In this document: positions 1 to 44,534 of the stretch, one piece after another | Layout: every line of letters starts with the position of its first letter | Numbering within the stretch: the first letter of the stretch is position 1 | IMG/VR virus record: IMGVR_UViG_3300024520_000140 | Location: 1 to 44,534 of that record | Reading direction: 5' to 3' (one strand) | DNA length: 44,534 nt | Source: a virus | The notes under the pieces: generated by a model | What the model was told of the DNA's origin: nothing | Seen by the model: only the letters and a program-made list of their open reading frames with translations | Databases searched by the model: none | Made by a program: the position numbers and the translations under genes

Positions 1-222
1 GTACCCGTGCCCGTCCCCGCCCCCGTACCCGCTAAGTGCAAATAAGGACAATCGAGCATCCACCGGGAAATTTGAAAGAACTAATTTTTTAGCTAACTTC
101 GGGAGAACATCCTCTAACCATTGTAAATCAACGTATGAAAATTCATCGAATGGCTTCCCTATACTTTGTGAACATGCCCCTACTGCCATTATTTCATTGT
201 ATAGATTAGGTGTTAATTCCAT
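1..222 (-). CDS. Gly-rich-tailed small protein, split by the contig ends (N-terminal 74 codons)
   Basis: An ATG at 222 opens a frame that runs without a stop to base 1, giving 74 codons. It begins MELTPNLYNEIMAVG and turns into a Gly-X repeat (GYGGGDGHGY) encoded by the C-rich plus-strand end. The first 8 bases of the window equal its last 8. If the ends are joined through these, the frame continues for 13 codons (GDGGGLNFKWSNQ) and stops at a TGA overlapping the helicase ATG at 44488, giving about 87 aa. Its start overlaps the end of the 213-494 gene by 10 bases. I do not recognise the family. The repeat length may be collapsed by assembly. Confidence 0.7.
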   Translation of the reverse strand, partial: MELTPNLYNEIMAVGACSQSIGKPFDEFSYVDLQWLEDVLPKLAKKLVLSNFPVDARLSLFALSGYGGGDGHGY

Positions 223-4661: not shown

Positions 4662-4879
4662 CGTCCGTACTCCTTAAAGATTCTTTCACAATACTCCGCT
4701 GCTGCATTTTTAGATATAAGATCCTCACAGATTCTGGTTGGATTTTCACATGCTACGTATACATTAGGTTCTGCTTTGAATTTACCGTTGTGTTTTGTGA
4801 TTGTGCCGTATAACTTCGGCCGTGGTCTATCATCGGACCACACCTGCCATTCACCCTTGGTTATCTTGTCTATTGTCAT
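4658..4879 (-). CDS. Hypothetical 73-aa protein
   Basis: The protein begins MTIDKITKGEWQVW and ends AAEYCERIFKEYGR. The shape (short beta-rich N-terminus, then a helix with NAAAEYCERI) resembles many tiny phage early proteins in which a final helix follows a GEW/VW strand. No function can be assigned. It overlaps the downstream zinc-ribbon gene by ATGA at 4658-4661 and the upstream 60-aa gene by 4 bases, so it is part of one co-translated block. Confidence 0.65.
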   Translation of the reverse strand: MTIDKITKGEWQVWSDDRPRPKLYGTITKHNGKFKAEPNVYVACENPTRICEDLISKNAAAEYCERIFKEYGR

Positions 4880-5058
4880 TCCATGTACTCCGGTCCTAGG
4901 TATTCATCCCAACACTCATCGGAACAAAGACCCGTTACAAGTTGTTCCCGTTGAATTGGTGTTGCGTTTGGGAACTCATGCTGGACGAGTTTGTCTGGAT
5001 GTTTGGGGTTGAGAACTGTATTGTAAGTTTTGCTACAATTAGGACACTTTCGTTCCAT
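4876..5058 (-). CDS. 60-aa zinc-ribbon protein (CPNC ... CSDECW)
   Basis: MERKCPNCSKTYNTV opens the protein and TGLCSDECWDEYLGPEY closes it. The pairs CPNC (5-8) and CSDEC (45-49) should bind one zinc. The segment QHEFPNATPIQREQ between them matches, from memory, a small zinc-ribbon type seen in several phages. The ATG at 5058 is preceded by AAGGAG at 6 bases, much better than upstream GTG or ATG choices, which would have to read through an inverted-repeat arm (5072-5096). It heads the cluster 4117-5058. Confidence 0.75.
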   Translation of the reverse strand: MERKCPNCSKTYNTVLNPKHPDKLVQHEFPNATPIQREQLVTGLCSDECWDEYLGPEYME

Positions 5059-5071
5059 ATTTTTCTCCTTG

Positions 5072-5219
5072 TAATATCCATAATCACAGGCTTGGTCGCC
5101 ATGCCACAGATCATGGTGCGTGGCAACATTCCACACTTAGATAGTCGATGTCATTATCGGGGTATGTTGACCCCCCTAGGACGAACCTAAATCAACCAAG
5201 CCTGTGATTACAGATATTA
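5072..5219. repeat. Long-range inverted repeat A (25-nt arms, 98-nt loop)
   Basis: Arms 5072-5096 and 5195-5219 pair at 23 of 25 positions. Both mismatches become G-U pairs in the leftward transcript and are C-A clashes in the rightward one. The loop contains further pairing (for example GGGG-8-CCCC at 5159-5174). In the leftward message the 3' arm ends 2 bases before the ribosome site of the 60-aa zinc-ribbon gene. It therefore looks like a structured 5' leader. Confidence 0.7.
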
Positions 5220-5224
5220 AATAA

Positions 5225-5318
5225 GGTCTATAGGGTATAGCCTTTCCGTGTCTTGCGAGGTGGGTCTCGTCTGATTGCTAGTTTCTATACCCCTGCATAG
5301 CTAGCTTGCATATAGACC
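5225..5318. other. Nested-stem element (candidate structured RNA or DNA junction)
   Basis: GGTCTATA (5225-5232) pairs exactly with TATAGACC (5311-5318). Directly inside it GGGTATAG (5233-5240) pairs exactly with CTATACCC (5285-5292). A separate hairpin (5294-5310, TGCA arms around an AGCTAGCT palindrome) lies between the two 3' strands, and the inner loop has CGAG-6-CTCG. This gives a three-way junction in gene-free DNA. I see no tRNA features; the function is unknown. Confidence 0.5.
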
Positions 5319-5397
5319 AATGTTGTTGGGCGGTGTACGCCACCCCTGCACTATAGCGTAGCACTCTTACTTGCGGGGTTAGCCCTAGTGGTTGGCT

Positions 5398-5623
5398 AGT
5401 AGACTCGCTTACTTGCTCGCCTAGGGGGTTAACTTAGGGGTGTTAGTTTTATAATTGTCCACAGCTGTATGCCTGCATTCAAACAGGCCCATTGTTGAGC
5501 GTGTTCGCTATCTTCAAAAGGCCCGTGTATCGTTTGTATACCTGTAAAAAAGTCGCCTATGAGCACTACACATTTTTCCATAACTTACTCCAATCTGCGA
5601 GCAAGCAAGTAAGCGAGCCTACT
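5398..5623. repeat. Long-range inverted repeat B enclosing the 50-aa gene
   Basis: Arm 5398-5417 (AGTAGACTCGCTTACTTGCT) pairs with 5604-5623 at 19 of 20 positions, and TGGTT lies next to both arms. The one mismatch is a G-U pair in the leftward transcript. The arms bracket the whole 5429-5581 gene including its ribosome site (5588-5591). Confidence 0.65.
5429..5581 (-). CDS. 50-aa miniprotein enclosed by inverted repeat B
   Basis: An ATG at 5581 with GGAG 6 bases upstream opens a 50-codon frame. It begins MEKCVVLIGDFFTGIQTIHG and contains GPFEDSEHAQQWACLNAG and a C-terminal LWTIIKLTP. The pattern G--GPF----A--WA------W-I--L recalls small phage proteins with a beta-beta-alpha-beta layout and unknown function. 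It is isolated from its neighbours by about 90 bases on one side and 370 on the other, and is bracketed by the 20-nt inverted repeat arms, which is unusual in this otherwise packed arm. Confidence 0.6.
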   Translation of the reverse strand: MEKCVVLIGDFFTGIQTIHGPFEDSEHAQQWACLNAGIQLWTIIKLTPLS

Positions 5624-5635
5624 AACCAAATATAA

Positions 5636-6175
5636 GCGGTGTGTGTCTCGTAACGGGGACGGCCCTGATTGTGGTTAGTCGGCCAGATTCTTGTAAAAAT
5701 CCAGAACACGTGCTCTGGACATATCCCTTGTGGTTTCCTTGAAACTCTTGAGCATTGGGCCAGCCCCTTGTCTTTCATGGTCACGGAGAATCTCTGAGAT
5801 TGCCTTGACCATTGTAGGGGAGTGCCCTGGTTTGGGGTTTAGGTGCGTGAGAATCCACTTCTGCTTCAAGTGGACATCCGCTGGGGTATCACACAGCGTC
5901 TTGAAATTGGTTTCCATGCTATCGCCAATTCCCTTTAGCCAATCACCAAAACTGGCATACTTTCCTTGGAGTTTCTCTTTCCAGAGTCGGTGACAAGCAT
6001 ATACAGCGGATTCTTCGGGATTCTTAAGTAACAAGAACATTTCGCATAATGCCAATTGAGCGGCTTCAGCGATTTGCTTGCTTGTTACTTCCGGTTTCGT
6101 CTCGGTCGTGGTCGTGGTCATAGTTTTCTCCATTGTAAGAAACTAGGACCGTCCCAATTACGAGACACACACCGC
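5636..6175. repeat. Long-range inverted repeat C enclosing the 148-aa gene
   Basis: The arms 5636-5666 and 6145-6175 (31 nt each, shared start GCGGTGTGTGTCTCGTAA) match at 28 of 31 positions. Two of three mismatches are G-U pairs in the leftward transcript, none in the other. The arms lie 8 bases past the stop codon and 23 bases before the start codon of the gene they enclose. No target-site duplication or transposase is associated. Confidence 0.7.
5675..6121 (-). CDS. Hypothetical helical protein enclosed by inverted repeat C
   Basis: A 148-aa protein starting MTTTTTETKPEV, a Thr-rich flexible N-terminus followed by almost entirely helical sequence (QIAEAAQLALCEMFLLL, then HRLWKEKLQGKYASFGDWLK, then SRARVLDFYKNLAD at the end). 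No catalytic motif is visible and the family is not recognised. I chose the ATG at 6121 because GGAG (6128-6131) is correctly placed for it; an in-frame ATG at 6133 overlaps that site. Its messenger is expected to be bracketed by the 31-nt arms, implying special processing or stability. Confidence 0.7.
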   Translation of the reverse strand: MTTTTTETKPEVTSKQIAEAAQLALCEMFLLLKNPEESAVYACHRLWKEKLQGKYASFGDWLKGIGDSMETNFKTLCDTPADVHLKQKWILTHLNPKPGHSPTMVKAISEILRDHERQGAGPMLKSFKETTRDMSRARVLDFYKNLAD

Positions 6176-6971
6176 GTTGTATCGTCGTAGGACCGGGTTG
6201 TACCGGTATCGTACGGATACAGCTTGCTCTTAGATCGGCTACTCGACAGACGGAGAGCTTGCACCGTCAACGCTCAGACATGGACCGGCCAACTACCCGG
6301 AATGCCTTGCACGCGAGCCTTGCACGTATCGACACTTACGTACCGTTTACCTAGCTTAATTGTAGGCCGTCAGTTATCTAGGCGATGGCGAGCCATCGCA
6401 TTATGCAATCGTACCTTTACACGTCCTTTACCGTAGGTCGGCATACACCGTATCTGCTTGTGCAGATAACTTCGGACGCATTCCTGTACCAGCTCGCCAT
6501 TGACGCGGTATTTCCGCACCACTAAAATAGCTTGGTACTGACCGCTTTTCTTCAATTCCGTAAAGTGCTTATCAGCCGCACTTGCGGACGTGAATACTCT
6601 GCGATTCAATGGCCGTCGTGAGTATGCCGACACGCATAGCGTGTCGCTCATCGCATATATTCTCCGGTAACTATCTTAAACCGCCACAATGGCGGATTGT
6701 CCACAATAGCGGGCATTATTGGTCTGGTAGCGTATCAGCCTTAGCCTTAGCCGTATCGCCACTTGCAACCCGCCCGCCTTTGGGTGGCTAATGGTAACAT
6801 CATACGTGGCACCGATTCGGATTCACACCACGCATGGCCATGCCATGCCCCTTTAATTTTTTTGACTGCCGAGCGAAGCCGGTTTCAACCGGTTGTTCGC
6901 TCCGTCGAGATACACCTTGCACTTGGCGTGCCAACCGATGTAATCGAGCCTAAAAGACCTTTAAACCGCGA
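6176..6971. other. Hairpin-rich tract left of the iteron region
   Basis: This stretch holds one doubtful gene (6370-6651) and a striking number of perfect short hairpins: 6382-6399 (8 bp), 6451-6468 (7 bp), 6628-6646 (8 bp), 6681-6695 (6 bp) and 6696-6707 (5 bp). There is also a compound stem at 6871-6902 with GAGCGAA/TTCGCTC outside and CCGGTT/AACCGG inside. A 12-bp palindrome GCATGGCCATGC lies near 6833. None is followed by a T run that would make a classic terminator. Confidence 0.5.
6370..6651 (-). CDS. Possible basic 93-aa protein
   Basis: An ATG at 6651 with GGAG 10 bases upstream opens a frame starting MSDTLCVSAYSRRPLNR, with a plausible core (ASAADKHFTELKKSGQYQAI then VVRKYRVNGELVQEC). 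The core reads like a small alpha/beta phage protein. Against it, several perfect hairpins fall inside the frame (6382-6399, 6451-6468, 6628-6646) and the ending is very basic. It would be the first gene of the leftward unit. I regard it as possible but unproven. Confidence 0.35.
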   Translation of the reverse strand: MSDTLCVSAYSRRPLNRRVFTSASAADKHFTELKKSGQYQAILVVRKYRVNGELVQECVRSYLHKQIRCMPTYGKGRVKVRLHNAMARHRLDN

Positions 6972-7065
6972 TATTATCGGACGTTGAGAGTGTACGATTA
7001 TCAAACAGGGTCACGTCCGATAATATCGACGATTCAAAGGCTATATCCATTTATTATCGGACCTG

Positions 7066-7216
7066 TGGGTCATATCACGCTATCAACTGGGTCATATCAC
7101 ACAACGTCCATATAAGTTTGTTAGTTATCGGACGCATCCTCGATTCAAGCCAATCAAGTACGTTATTATCGGACCATGATCATAGTCCGATAATATCTGT
7201 AGCGTGATATGACCCA
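7066..7216. repeat. Second repeat family TGGGTCATATCAC, three copies
   Basis: Exact copies are at 7066-7078(+), 7088-7100(+) and 7204-7216(-). The first and third share 16 bases (TGGGTCATATCACGCT, 7066-7081 and 7201-7216 inverted). They are interleaved with the TTATCGGAC sites, so two different proteins may bind this region. Confidence 0.7.
7164..7195. promoter_or_regulatory. 32-bp near-perfect palindrome built from two iterons
   Basis: TATTATCGGAC (7164-7174) and its exact reverse complement (7185-7195) flank CATGATCATA, itself palindromic at its core. The whole is symmetrical except for one pair. It is a strong candidate for the highest-affinity binding site or the duplex-opening core of the region. 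Confidence 0.65.
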
Positions 7217-7256
7217 ATTCAATTTAGCTTTAATTGCTGGGCGAAAGATTATATAC

Positions 7257-7285
7257 TTGACAAATTAGTGTTTATGGTGTATACT
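7257..7285 (+). promoter_or_regulatory. Strong sigma70-type promoter for the rightward (virion) unit
   Basis: TTGACA (7257-7262), a 17-base spacer and TATACT (7280-7285) make a near-consensus promoter followed by an AT-rich start region. It is the best promoter match I find in the window and points toward the packaging and virion genes, whose first start codon is at 7753. Confidence 0.75.
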
Positions 7286-7678
7286 ATATATATACAGTGA
7301 TTGCCTGGAGGTCTTGGCAATTAACAATTGTAAATTATCCATAAAGGCTAAAAGTCTGTCTATACAGATAAAAAGCGCTTTTTTTACTATTAACACGATA
7401 ATATAGTATTGATATGATAATGTTCGGATGCGATACGCTATGGTTATCGGACGTTGCCGACCGGCGACCGGTCAGTAGGTCCGATAACCTATGGTCCGAT
7501 AACCATTGACCGGTCGGCGTGGTCCGTTAACCATGCGGCGACCCATGCCTTGGGACTCCGAACGTGCTCATGGGTATATATACCAGGGGATCGGAATCGA
7601 CGCTATTTCTACCGACCGGTCACCATTGACCATTTAGGAGTCCCATTAGGGATTTTTAAGGATTTTAAAATAGACGCC
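7286..7678 (+). other. Long untranslated leader of the rightward unit
   Basis: About 470 bases separate the promoter from the first gene. The leader has ATTGCC-10-GGCAAT overlapping a CAATT/AATTG hairpin (7300-7330), CTGT-4-ACAG near 7360, and the loopless palindrome AAAAAGCGCTTTTT (7370-7383) followed by two more T. It also has three TTATCGGAC sites and three GACCGGTC sites. Overlapping hairpins near the start could be an attenuator. No open frame here looks coding. Confidence 0.45.
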
Positions 7679-7723
7679 GCCGACCGGTGACCATCCTCCG
7701 TTACCCCCTCCTGGTCACCGGTC
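7466..7723. repeat. GACCGGTC palindrome cluster
   Basis: Exact GACCGGTC occurs at 7466-7473, 7508-7515 and 7614-7621, and variants GACCGGTG (7682-7689) and CACCGGTC (7716-7723) form the hairpin before the first late gene. Exact copies also occur at 4266, 36724, 40830, 41296 and 41841 inside genes. The density in this leader is far above expectation. Confidence 0.6.
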
Positions 7724-7726
7724 GGC
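7679..7726. promoter_or_regulatory. Perfect 15-bp hairpin before the first late gene
   Basis: GCCGACCGGTGACCA (7679-7693) and its exact reverse complement (7712-7726) flank an 18-base pyrimidine-rich loop. It ends 26 bases before the start codon at 7753. No T run follows, so it is not a classic terminator. It could block ribosome access, bind an antiterminator or stabilise the message. Confidence 0.65.
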
Positions 7727-7752
7727 AAACTTAGTAACTGTGTGAAACCTCG

Positions 7753-11716: not shown

Positions 11717-13731
11717 ATAATCCACATCTATATGACGTGAAGAAGGGTAAGAAGGGGTCCGTTACAACTTTTGTAACGGGAGCTTTCTCCGATCACGTCA
11801 ATTATATGCGTTCTAAACACCGGTCTTGGGCTCTAAACTTAGCTTGGACTAAGGGTCACCAGAATTGTGATTATAATCCTAAGACAAATGCGTATAATAA
11901 ATTGCCAACTCAAACATGGCAATCTAGATTAATTTCTAATCTGATGCTCCCGATTGTTAGGAACAATGTTTCTAGATTTTTATCAATTAATCCAGTTTGG
12001 GACATGGTTCCTGCAACTCCGGATGAAGAAGATCTACAAATAGCGGACATTAGTAAATCTATATTAACACACGAATGGCATAGAATGAACATGCTTCAGA
12101 AATTGATGCGTGTTTTATTCTGGCAGTCTACTTGTTCCTCTTCGTTTCTTAAAATAGGGTGGGATGCGGACTCTGGAGACAGTATAAAAGTCCCCAGCAG
12201 GGATATAGATGAAGGCTTACTCAACCAGTACCTGGAAATGTCAGGTATAGCCATTGTGCCTGATGAGCTTGATCTACAAACTGGAAATGTTTTCGCAGAG
12301 CCCATCCCACCTTTTAATATATGTGTTGATCCCTTAGCATCTGTACTGGAAGATACTGATTATATAATTGAAACCCAGATAAGATCTAAAGATTCCATTG
12401 TAAATGATCACGGTAATAAATGGAAAGATAAATTAGGTGAAACTAACGAACAACAGATTCTCCTTCATCCATATGTATTCAATGAAGATGAACCGGTGCC
12501 TAAGACTGGTGTAGTAACTCATGAACTTTTCGTACGAAGTACAAAAAGATTCCCCAAGGGTTTATATTGTTTAATCGCTGGTGAGGAAATACTGGTTGCC
12601 CCTAAGGATTTACCATATGATCATGGTATGTTACCCTATGCACACTTCCTTGAGATATACGAACCAGGATCATTCTGGGGTACTTGTTCTGCTGAACAGG
12701 TGAGACCCAACCAAGCTAGATACAATAAGATACAGTCTGTAATTACGGATTGTATAAATAAGATGGGTAAGATCCAGTGGTTGAATCCTACACAGAGTGG
12801 TATACAAGATTTTACAAATGCTCCTGGTGAAGTATACAATTATCGTCATCCGTTTAAACCAGAACAGACTAAACCTGCTAATATCCCCATGTATATGTTA
12901 AATGCATTGGAAGGTGTACGCAGGGATATGCAAGATACAGCGAGTTTCCATAATGTCAGTCAAGCTCAGGGTGAGCCAGGAGTACGATCAGGTCGTGCTA
13001 TCATGGCGTTGCAGGATGCCGACGATTCCATTCATGGTGCTGGGATGCTTTGGCTCGATCACTCCCTTAAAAGAACTGGAGAACTCACCCTTCGGACGCT
13101 TAATCAGTACGCCACCGAAGAACGTATTATCCAGATTACAGGAGAGTTCAATCAATTAGAAACTCTCACATACACAGGAGCTATGCTTGAGGGGCAAAAT
13201 CCTGGAGATTATTTTAACGTAAGAGTTCAGACTCATACACGTAATAGTATGTCACGTGTGGGGCGTGAGTCGTTGATAATGAATCTAATGCAAGCTGGTA
13301 TCATGGACCCTGAAAAGGACCGTAAGGTCGTTTTACAGATGCTTGGTATGGCTGATACAATGTCGATGTTTGATGAACTTGACGTTGATAGAACTAGACA
13401 ATGGAAAGAAATTCAACAGATGGAGGCCGGCCAGGAGGTCGGCGTGATGCCTAATGAGAATCATGAGATTCATAAAGAAGTCATTACTAAATATTTAGCA
13501 GGAAGCAGAAGGGAGAAACTAAGTCCGGAAGCATTGAAGTTGATTCAGAAGCATATGACTCAGCATATGGAAATGGAAGTAATGGAAGCTCTGCAACAGC
13601 AGATGATGGTTCAAAAATTTATAGGAGATTCAAGTGGCGGAACAGCCCAAAACAGAGGAAACGGAAGTCAAAACAGAAGCCCCAGCAGAGGATCAGGAGC
13701 AAGTAACACAGGAGTCAACACAACCCAGTGA
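11713..13731 (+). CDS. Portal protein
   Basis: A 672-aa protein placed between terminase and scaffold, as expected for a portal. It has an early MRSKHRSWALNLAWTKGHQN segment, a helix with VRNNVSRFLSINPVW, a central domain with CVDPLAS, and a long helical C-terminal half (SGRAIMALQDADDSIHGAG) typical of podoviral portals. A dodecameric ring at one vertex, through which DNA enters and to which the tail attaches, is expected. It starts with TTG at 11713, overlapping the preceding TGA, with GGAG 7 bases upstream. The last 33 codons, low-complexity Ser/Gly/Asn/Arg, are also read in another frame as the scaffold N-terminus. Confidence 0.85.
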   Translation: MNNPHLYDVKKGKKGSVTTFVTGAFSDHVNYMRSKHRSWALNLAWTKGHQNCDYNPKTNAYNKLPTQTWQSRLISNLMLPIVRNNVSRFLSINPVWDMVPATPDEEDLQIADISKSILTHEWHRMNMLQKLMRVLFWQSTCSSSFLKIGWDADSGDSIKVPSRDIDEGLLNQYLEMSGIAIVPDELDLQTGNVFAEPIPPFNICVDPLASVLEDTDYIIETQIRSKDSIVNDHGNKWKDKLGETNEQQILLHPYVFNEDEPVPKTGVVTHELFVRSTKRFPKGLYCLIAGEEILVAPKDLPYDHGMLPYAHFLEIYEPGSFWGTCSAEQVRPNQARYNKIQSVITDCINKMGKIQWLNPTQSGIQDFTNAPGEVYNYRHPFKPEQTKPANIPMYMLNALEGVRRDMQDTASFHNVSQAQGEPGVRSGRAIMALQDADDSIHGAGMLWLDHSLKRTGELTLRTLNQYATEERIIQITGEFNQLETLTYTGAMLEGQNPGDYFNVRVQTHTRNSMSRVGRESLIMNLMQAGIMDPEKDRKVVLQMLGMADTMSMFDELDVDRTRQWKEIQQMEAGQEVGVMPNENHEIHKEVITKYLAGSRREKLSPEALKLIQKHMTQHMEMEVMEALQQQMMVQKFIGDSSGGTAQNRGNGSQNRSPSRGSGASNTGVNTTQ

Positions 13732-14347
13732 ACCGCAGTATATCCCTATTCCTAATTTAGGCGAGGGTGGTGGACATACTCAAATGACCCCTGAAGAAGT
13801 TATGCGGTACGCGACGTATGGTAAGTATAAGCACGATCAAGAGCAGACTGAGGAAACCGTGGCAACTGAGAAGAAAGAGGAAGAAGTGAAAGCCGAGGAA
13901 ACCACGGATGAGAAGTACGAGAGATTACAAAAGGAATTCACAACTCATAAGGCAGAGGTTAAGCGTAAGGATGATCTCGCAAGTTTTAAAAATGAGATGA
14001 CTGACGTGTCAAATAGTTTTGAATTCTTGAAAGAATTCCCTGATTTGGCTAAGGGTGTGCAGTCACAAGCAGCTTCATTGATGGCGATTAATAATCGGCT
14101 AACAATTAAAGATGCTATGACTCAAGTAGTTGAAGAACGTACAAATTTTATGAAAGCAATTGAAGAAAAACATCAAAATAAAAGACATGCAAATACAAAG
14201 ACGTTTGCTAGTGTAAATAAGGTACAAACCGGAGTGGCCGGTAGTCCTAATATAAATTCAGAGAAACCTTATACCGGACAAGATGTGAAATCCGGTAAGT
14301 CACGTGCTGATGTGGCAGAGTTTCTACGAGAAATGCAAGGAGATTAA
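13634..14347 (+). CDS. Capsid scaffolding protein
   Basis: A 237-aa acidic protein between portal and capsid. It starts at GTG 13634 with AGGAG upstream. The N-terminal 100 residues are disordered and Glu/Lys/Thr-rich (TEETEVKTEAPAEDQEQ). A coiled-coil stretch follows (EKYERLQKEFTTHKAEV), then LKEFPDLAKGV and VEERTNFMKAIEE helices, and a polar end with ADVAEFLREMQGD. These are the usual traits of scaffolds that shape the prohead and then leave. Its first 98 bases overlap the end of the portal gene. Confidence 0.8.
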   Translation: MAEQPKTEETEVKTEAPAEDQEQVTQESTQPSEPQYIPIPNLGEGGGHTQMTPEEVMRYATYGKYKHDQEQTEETVATEKKEEEVKAEETTDEKYERLQKEFTTHKAEVKRKDDLASFKNEMTDVSNSFEFLKEFPDLAKGVQSQAASLMAINNRLTIKDAMTQVVEERTNFMKAIEEKHQNKRHANTKTFASVNKVQTGVAGSPNINSEKPYTGQDVKSGKSRADVAEFLREMQGD

Positions 14348-14349
14348 CA

Positions 14350-15717
14350 TTGGCTGTACTAGGTCTACAAACTGGTAGTTTTGGGGACATCCTCAAGACA
14401 CGATATCTTGACCCAATTAATGATGAAGTGGTCAGAGCACATGTTCTGTTGGACAGGTTGGAAAAGAATAGTGAAGATGTGAGTGGTGAATTTGCTCATA
14501 TCCCATTGATTGCTGGACGTAACCCGGCTGTGGGTTCTCGTACAGATACCGCTGGTGGTGGACCGAAATTGCCAGCACATGGTGCTCAGACATATGATCG
14601 TGCAACCTTTACTATGGGATTGCATTACGGTCGTGGTTCTGTGTCAGGTGCCATTCGGCGTAAGTCCAGGGATAAGGCTGGTGCATTTGCAGAAGCTCTT
14701 GATCTGGAAATGAAGGGTCTTATGCAAAGTCTGCCGGATGATCTGAACCGTCAGGTTTGTTCATTGGGTAATGGTCGTGCGGCAACATTCATTACTACAC
14801 AAGCGGATAGTTCTGTGCTATTGTGTGATAATCGTGATCAGTTTACCCTTAAGGTTGGTGATCGAGTTCATCATGTTGATATCACTGATGCTAATGATTG
14901 GCTACCGCTCGCTGGTGGGGCTACTGTAAGTGATATTGCATTCGACACTGCTGCTAATACTAATACTGTAACTTTGTCTGCGACTATCGGTGATAGTATG
15001 ACTCCAGCTGCTGGAGCTTTGTACTTTGGTGGGGGTGGTACTGCTAATCTTACCGCCGAAGATAGCTCTCATGGTCAGGAAATTTATGGTATCCCTGCTT
15101 TGGTTGACGATGGTGATGTTGGTGCTGATGAAACTATTGTAACCGAAGCCACTGAGATGTTGACGGCTAGTGTTGCATCTGTAGGTGGTATTACTAGGAG
15201 TTCTAGCCCGTTTTGGCAGGCTAAGGTTTATCATAATCCTGTTAGTGCTGGTACTCGTAGACCGCTCACCCAAAAAATACTCTTTGAGGCTCATCTCTAT
15301 GCGACCGCCCAAGGTGGAGCAAATCCTAAGGGTATGGAACTTTATATGAGCCCGAGTATTTGGGGAACCCTTGGTATGATTCAGGTGGGTTCTCGAATTT
15401 ATAATGATTACAAGAAAACGGTTGAGATGGGTTGGGAGTATATTGAAGTTAATGGCTCCAAAGCTTTCTATGATCGTGACCTTCCGCGATTCTGCATGTT
15501 CTATCTGAATATGGAATCTATTTTCTTGCTCACTCAGGGTGGGTATGAGATGATTGATGATGATGGGAATGTACTTCGAGTGATCGCGGGTGGTGGTCGT
15601 GATGCCTGGGAATTTAGTATCCAACGAGACTGTCAGGTGGGTATTAAATCTGGGCGTCGTCATGTCAGAGTCAATGACATTGAAGAGACCATGACAGTCC
15701 TTGGAGCTACTCACTAA
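14350..15717 (+). CDS. Major capsid protein
   Basis: A 455-aa protein directly after the scaffold. An N-arm is followed by AFAEALDLEMKGLMQSLPDD (long helix), a beta-rich variable insertion (about 170-245, Thr/Ala/Gly-rich), and a C-terminal domain with MELYMSPSIWGTLG and GYEMIDDDGNVLRVI. This fits the HK97 capsid fold of podovirus-like phages, although no single motif proves it. It uses a TTG start at 14350 with a strong AAGGAG 7 bases upstream; there is no in-frame ATG until about residue 90. Its TAA overlaps the next ATG. Confidence 0.8.
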   Translation: MAVLGLQTGSFGDILKTRYLDPINDEVVRAHVLLDRLEKNSEDVSGEFAHIPLIAGRNPAVGSRTDTAGGGPKLPAHGAQTYDRATFTMGLHYGRGSVSGAIRRKSRDKAGAFAEALDLEMKGLMQSLPDDLNRQVCSLGNGRAATFITTQADSSVLLCDNRDQFTLKVGDRVHHVDITDANDWLPLAGGATVSDIAFDTAANTNTVTLSATIGDSMTPAAGALYFGGGGTANLTAEDSSHGQEIYGIPALVDDGDVGADETIVTEATEMLTASVASVGGITRSSSPFWQAKVYHNPVSAGTRRPLTQKILFEAHLYATAQGGANPKGMELYMSPSIWGTLGMIQVGSRIYNDYKKTVEMGWEYIEVNGSKAFYDRDLPRFCMFYLNMESIFLLTQGGYEMIDDDGNVLRVIAGGGRDAWEFSIQRDCQVGIKSGRRHVRVNDIEETMTVLGATH

Positions 15718-44488: not shown

Positions 44489-44534
44489 TGGTTACTCCAT
44501 TTAAAATTTAACCCGCCCCCGTCCCCGTACCCGT
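44485..44534 (-). CDS. C-terminal end of the Gly-rich-tailed protein, split by the contig ends
   Basis: After closing the molecule through the 8-base overlap, codons from 44526 downward read GDGGGLNFKWSNQ and stop at TGA 44485-44487, which overlaps the helicase start ATG (44486-44488). The frame is intact only if the repeat is kept in multiples of three bases. Without joining, the last 8 bases just duplicate bases 1-8. Confidence 0.65.
   Translation of the reverse strand, partial: GYGDGGGLNFKWSNQ
44512..44534. repeat. G-rich hexamer-like repeat at both contig ends
   Basis: On the minus strand bases 44534-44512 and 31-1 consist of GGG plus three variable bases repeated (TAC, GGC, GAC, CAC). 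The last 8 bases of the window equal the first 8. This direct repeat is where the assembly broke. It encodes a Gly-X tail and has at least seven closely spaced G runs, enough for G-quadruplexes on the coding strand. Confidence 0.75.

Follow-up and report, generated by a model that had tools for sequence, protein, structure and literature searches.

In pre-rRNA, the 16S and 23S rRNAs are surrounded by RNase III processing stems, and in phage T7 RNase III sites lie between the early genes. Group I and group II introns carry ORFs in their peripheral loops. In the PeSL (Promoter-early-stem-loop) cassettes of T4-like phages, stem-loops and small early genes are shuffled as modules. GOLLD and ROOL are giant phage-encoded RNAs found near tRNA genes, and GOLLD can carry tRNAs in its linker (PMC12286853).

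The locus described here belongs to an uncultured tailed phage, and lies in a stretch of 44,534 nt that was analysed as a whole (hereafter, the window). As in pre-rRNA, a long stem with arms of more than 22 bp arises where the flanks of a single RNA unit pair within a polycistronic precursor; unlike in pre-rRNA, the enclosed units are protein-coding phage mini-mRNAs with the ribosome-binding site in the loop, the arms are unrelated between modules, and cleavage is something that we only infer. The early RNA of T7 is likewise a polycistronic phage RNA with processing hairpins between genes, but these are local intergenic stem-loops that do not close round a gene, and PeSLs too are short intergenic units of promoter and stem-loop rather than gene-enclosing structures. 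With the introns, the locus has in common that a helix of a structured RNA carries a gene in its loop; unlike in introns, there was no Rfam match to a catalytic core, no exons were seen, and the stems of the window have no surrounding structured RNA. Compared with GOLLD and ROOL, there was no Rfam match, the unit carried is a protein gene, and the window does not contain such an RNA.

Stems A, B and C in the window

The original prediction had placed three inverted repeats (A, B and C) back to back, with B enclosing a 50-aa ORF and its Shine-Dalgarno site, and C enclosing a 148-aa ORF. All three repeats were recovered at those positions, with arms slightly longer than proposed (full-length repeats: A 5072-5096/5195-5219, arm identity 92%; B 5392-5420/5601-5629, 90%; C 5636-5666/6145-6175, 90%), and both enclosures were borne out. 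The features are the following, in the order of the leftward transcript.

6141..6175, minus strand: 5' arm of stem C, in the leftward transcript
5675..6121, minus strand: gene C, 148 aa from ATG 6121, with its Shine-Dalgarno GGAG inside the loop
5636..5670, minus strand: 3' arm of stem C, starting at most 8 nt past the stop codon
5600..5629, minus strand: 5' arm of stem B, 6 nt past the end of stem C
5429..5581, minus strand: gene B, 50 aa, with its own Shine-Dalgarno site in the loop
5392..5421, minus strand: 3' arm of stem B, about 8 nt past the stop codon
5220..5391, minus strand: non-coding spacer between stem B and stem A, with a folding z of about -1.6, not clearly above chance
5193..5219, minus strand: 5' arm of stem A
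5072..5098, minus strand: 3' arm of stem A, a few nt ahead of the Shine-Dalgarno site of the gene at 4876-5058
4876..5058, minus strand: 60-aa gene downstream of stem A, an ORF

Each of stems B and C closes round one translation unit, including its Shine-Dalgarno site, while the loop of stem A (about 94-98 nt) contains no gene. Gene C may alternatively start at ATG 6133, which would give a protein of 152 aa (ORF 5675-6133, minus strand). In stem C, 6141-6175 pairs with 5636-5670 over 35 nt, with three G-U pairs, one A.C and one U.C.

When RNA stems were scored with G-U pairs allowed, A, B and C were the top three stems of the whole 44.5-kb window on the minus (gene-sense) strand, with scores of 73, 69 and 60, compared with 47 for the next-best stem of that strand and with maxima of 37-48 in 30 dinucleotide shuffles of the window. 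On the plus strand, the same three stems scored 63, 54 and 46. The RNA fold z values of the three stem units were -6.3, -5.9 and -8.4. The stems do not qualify as pairs of intrinsic terminators in a terminator scan, because their 3' arms have no U run and their loops measure about 94-478 nt.

A good -10/-35 match for leftward transcription was found far upstream, at 7362-7334, and no good promoter match was present between the stem units of the window. Judging from this distribution of promoter matches, the modules appear to be read as one leftward transcript.

No protein family was found for gene B or for gene C, no homologues of gene C were found beyond another contig of the same virus, and an AlphaFold model of gene C from its single sequence was uninformative (pLDDT 46). 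At the DNA level, no similar record was found among known phages, and the stem region gave no match in phage or plasmid records. The sole other copy, IMG/VR contig L009, is the same virus and differs by 2 SNPs, both far from the stems.

The same layout in other phages

A blind scan for strong stems, run on fetched distant terminase relatives of the window, yielded two viruses, G029 (IMGVR 3300031949_000008) and G028 (3300047198_000026). In each of them the stem encloses a single small gene with its ribosome-binding site, and the two enclosed proteins have a conserved motif in common. Two further viruses, G031 (3300036760_000327) and G034 (3300035099_000053), were found by homology of the enclosed protein, and the bracketing of the gene by a stem was then confirmed. 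A long stem round one small homologous gene is therefore present in four phages, all known from uncultured contigs, as would be expected if selection acted on RNA stems that close round single genes, which had been the central claim of the original prediction. The proteins enclosed in the window are not homologous to those in the brackets of the other phages. G029 has a second bracket, whose stem surrounds two small overlapping ORFs.

In the pieces that covered all of G028, G029 and G031, these brackets were the only stems scoring at least 52; the observed bracket stems scored 55-84, compared with maxima of 38-48 in shuffled pieces. The distance from the 5' arm to the start codon is 16-27 nt in six of the seven brackets, and 62 nt in G028, counted to the frame start adopted for that phage. 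The 3' arm follows the stop codon by 8-10 nt in five of the seven, the exceptions being G031 (40 nt) and G029-1 (47 nt). In G028, a tRNA-Ile gene begins 15 nt after the stem.

Homologues of the enclosed gene in contigs L080, L144 and L146 have no bracket, and no such stem was found at about 56 cellular homologues, mostly from Nitrospirota (in L143 the sequence stops too soon past the gene for such a comparison). The bracket is thus a property of these phage loci and not of the protein. The protein enclosed in the four phages is probably a winged-helix protein: in an AlphaFold model of the family (pLDDT 60), the C-terminal half forms three helices and two strands, which agrees with a winged helix (confidence low to medium). 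No match was found among solved structures, NCBIfam families or PADLOC families. As a separate observation, a family of small proteins (L148-L226) with the motif [IL]HTV[FY]SG[LMF]N and a predicted winged helix is widespread in Nitrospirota and other environmental bacteria; the phage members tested matched no Pfam or NCBIfam family.

The enclosed proteins of G029 and G031 are 55% identical, and their brackets were aligned by plain MAFFT on sequence only, without structure; the outer arms align. In this comparison, which covers two sequences, both from uncultured contigs, 16 of the 17 outer-helix pairs of G029 also pair in G031, seven of them with both partners changed. Were the altered 3' letters random replacements, 16 pairs would be kept with a probability of about 0.0003, and when the register was slid by 1 to 3 at most nine pairs were retained, with no or one compensatory change. 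The inner half of the stem is out of register in the alignment, although G031 pairs there too. So many double changes are difficult to account for unless pairing itself was under selection. The letters diverged but the pairing persisted, which points to selection at the RNA level, and RNA-level selection for stems that close round genes is well supported by these comparisons. The original prediction had proposed to look for covarying pairs in related phages. They were found between the G029 and G031 brackets; among the relatives of the window, which share terminase, polymerase or a DHH protein with it at about 25-45%, none has its stems.

The other main argument of the original prediction was that the mismatches between arms favour one strand. 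With the shorter B arms used there, its count holds exactly (six mismatches, five of them G-U in the leftward RNA and none in that of the other strand); with the full arms there are eight mismatches, seven of which are G-U pairs in the leftward RNA and the eighth U.C, while the rightward RNA has no G-U pair among them. When stems were detected by a procedure treating both strands alike, gene-sense G-U pairs outnumbered A.C by 9:1 in the window and by 11:2 in the other phages, i.e. by 20:3 overall (two-sided p = 0.0005), so that the bias is replicated outside the window, although the G031 stem, with two G-U and two A.C, has no strand bias on its own.

Possible use of the stems and alternative readings

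The reading that we prefer, with a probability of roughly 45%, is that a leftward early transcript carries stem-closed modules, with stems that separate the RNA units and allow RNase III-type excision with both ends protected. The RNA just 5' of the ribosome-binding site would form 25-35 bp with the stretch directly following the stop codon, each translation unit of stems B and C would sit in the loop of its own stem, and stem A would make up a module without a gene, placed in the leader of the gene that follows. The selected trait would be the pairing and not the sequence of the arms. The stems would mark off and separate RNA units within the leader transcript, and RNase III would cut them to excise a small mRNA with both ends protected, as with the 16S and 23S stems in pre-rRNA. 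Stems of more than 22 bp are RNase III substrates, which makes excision in the manner of pre-rRNA the simplest use; it would also fit the tRNA and structured-RNA neighbours seen in the other phages. That the stems are used for excision by an RNase III-like enzyme, for insulation or for end protection is what we infer, together with cleavage, the enzyme and any effect on stability or timing; the pairing probably serves to isolate or cut out the message of the enclosed gene. If this is true, single phage genes are packaged as modules of RNA within long transcripts, which would offer a testable route to the release, protection or timing of individual messages that needs no separate promoters.

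Three of these uncultured relatives have a large, conserved and strongly folded non-coding region, inside or beside which the bracket lies (L102:13600-15270 for G034, L093:717-1490 for G029 and L094:860-1560 for G031). Strong folding is seen on either side of the bracket in G034 (13600-13990, and 14500-15260 with z = -18.7, 20 shuffles), and the folded 700-nt regions of G029 and G031 have z of about -7. Conserved sequence islands of the folded region are common to the three phages, and a 75-nt core shows compensatory flips between G029 and G031 (for example UGGG/CCCA to CCCC/GGGG, and GACAGG/CCUGUC to GACGGG/CCCGUC). Searches of the window and the relatives against Rfam, at both gathering and lax thresholds, returned only tRNAs and chance microRNA matches. 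The folded region may possibly represent a new ornate phage RNA, which would mean that these three relatives also carry an apparently unreported giant structured RNA, of the class of GOLLD and ROOL.

The main rival to our preferred reading starts from this region. On this view a giant ornate phage RNA has the stem as a peripheral helix, with the gene inserted into or carried by its tip, and the stem would insulate the RNA fold from the mRNA; precedents are the maturase and endonuclease genes in group II and group I introns and the tRNAs in the GOLLD linker. The folded flanks on both sides of the bracketed gene in G034 agree with it, as do the core that G029 and G031 have in common, with its compensatory flips, and the islands of that core in G034. 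However, the window gave no match to this RNA, including the covariance model of the G029/G031 core, and its spacers show no more folding than shuffled sequences do (z 0.2 and -1.6); G028 is only weakly structured locally, and no intron or ornate RNA was matched in Rfam. This explanation fits the three relatives but not the window, and we consider it rather unlikely. Since the window shows no sign of this RNA, the common factor is the closing stem. The loci may tentatively be regarded as a new class of RNA architecture in phages: small genes lie complete inside closed stems, several of them within or beside a giant RNA of about 1-1.5 kb, and the transcript would be both an ornate RNA and an mRNA; we hold this with less confidence than the excision reading.

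Protection by end pairing, with or without cleavage, is possible. In the form without cleavage, the paired ends would shield the mRNA from 5'-end-dependent and 3' exonucleases, or would be joined for ligation or ribosome recycling. The arms begin immediately past the stop codon and reach to just ahead of the Shine-Dalgarno site, which is the minimal closing position, as this would require; but the units of the window are internal to a longer transcript, so that free ends would first have to be made, and we regard this form as rather improbable.

The inverted repeats flank whole genes, and repeats of this kind are common in transposons; the brackets could belong to DNA-level elements such as invertible segments, integron-like cassettes or small mobile elements with terminal inverted repeats. 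This is very improbable. Shared terminal repeats, as in transposons or MITEs, were not found, the arms of A, B and C being mutually unrelated; each module has arm sequences of its own, and even homologous genes mostly have unrelated arms, with most cross-phage arm comparisons at chance level. There are no conserved tips, and no direct repeats were seen by eye at the flanks. Moreover, a G-U bias would be meaningless for DNA, and the changes between G029 and G031 preserve pairing position by position.

Equally improbable is a neutral origin from recent inverted duplications followed by C-to-T mutation biased to the coding strand. Such a bias would imitate the seven G-U pairs, as C-to-T on the sense strand makes G-C into G-U in the sense RNA only (so that the original argument that random decay would not favour one strand was too strong), but the local base composition (GC skew about 0, sense strand A-rich and not T-rich) gives no sign of such mutation, and recurrence at homologous genes with seven compensatory pairs would be unexpected.

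Other repeats and the ends of the window

Long inverted repeats were also seen in L032, L037, L039 and L041, and were set apart from the layout described above. They enclose no clear gene and lie between divergent primase and ParB/helicase genes, and are therefore probably DNA control regions. In these four polymerase relatives the repeats are upstream of the primase gene (L039:2060-2285; L037:1251-1540; L041:1050-1321; L032:1728-2049), with arms of about 28-44 nt that are about 170-235 nt apart, and are likely to be an origin or divergent control element that the four have in common. In L014, a repeat with a high score was set aside because it lies within long ORFs.

In the window, the region 6950-7730 is a divergent control region dense with the repeated palindromic motifs TATTATCGGAC, TGGGTCATATCACGCTA and GACCGGTCACC, which are probably operators or an origin; the best promoter-like match is located in the same region (7257-7285, plus strand).

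Both ends of the window (1-30 and 44500-44534) lie within the same CCCCGN low-complexity tandem, and L009 also starts in a CCCCGN tandem. The genome is probably circular or permuted and broken by the assembly at this repeat.
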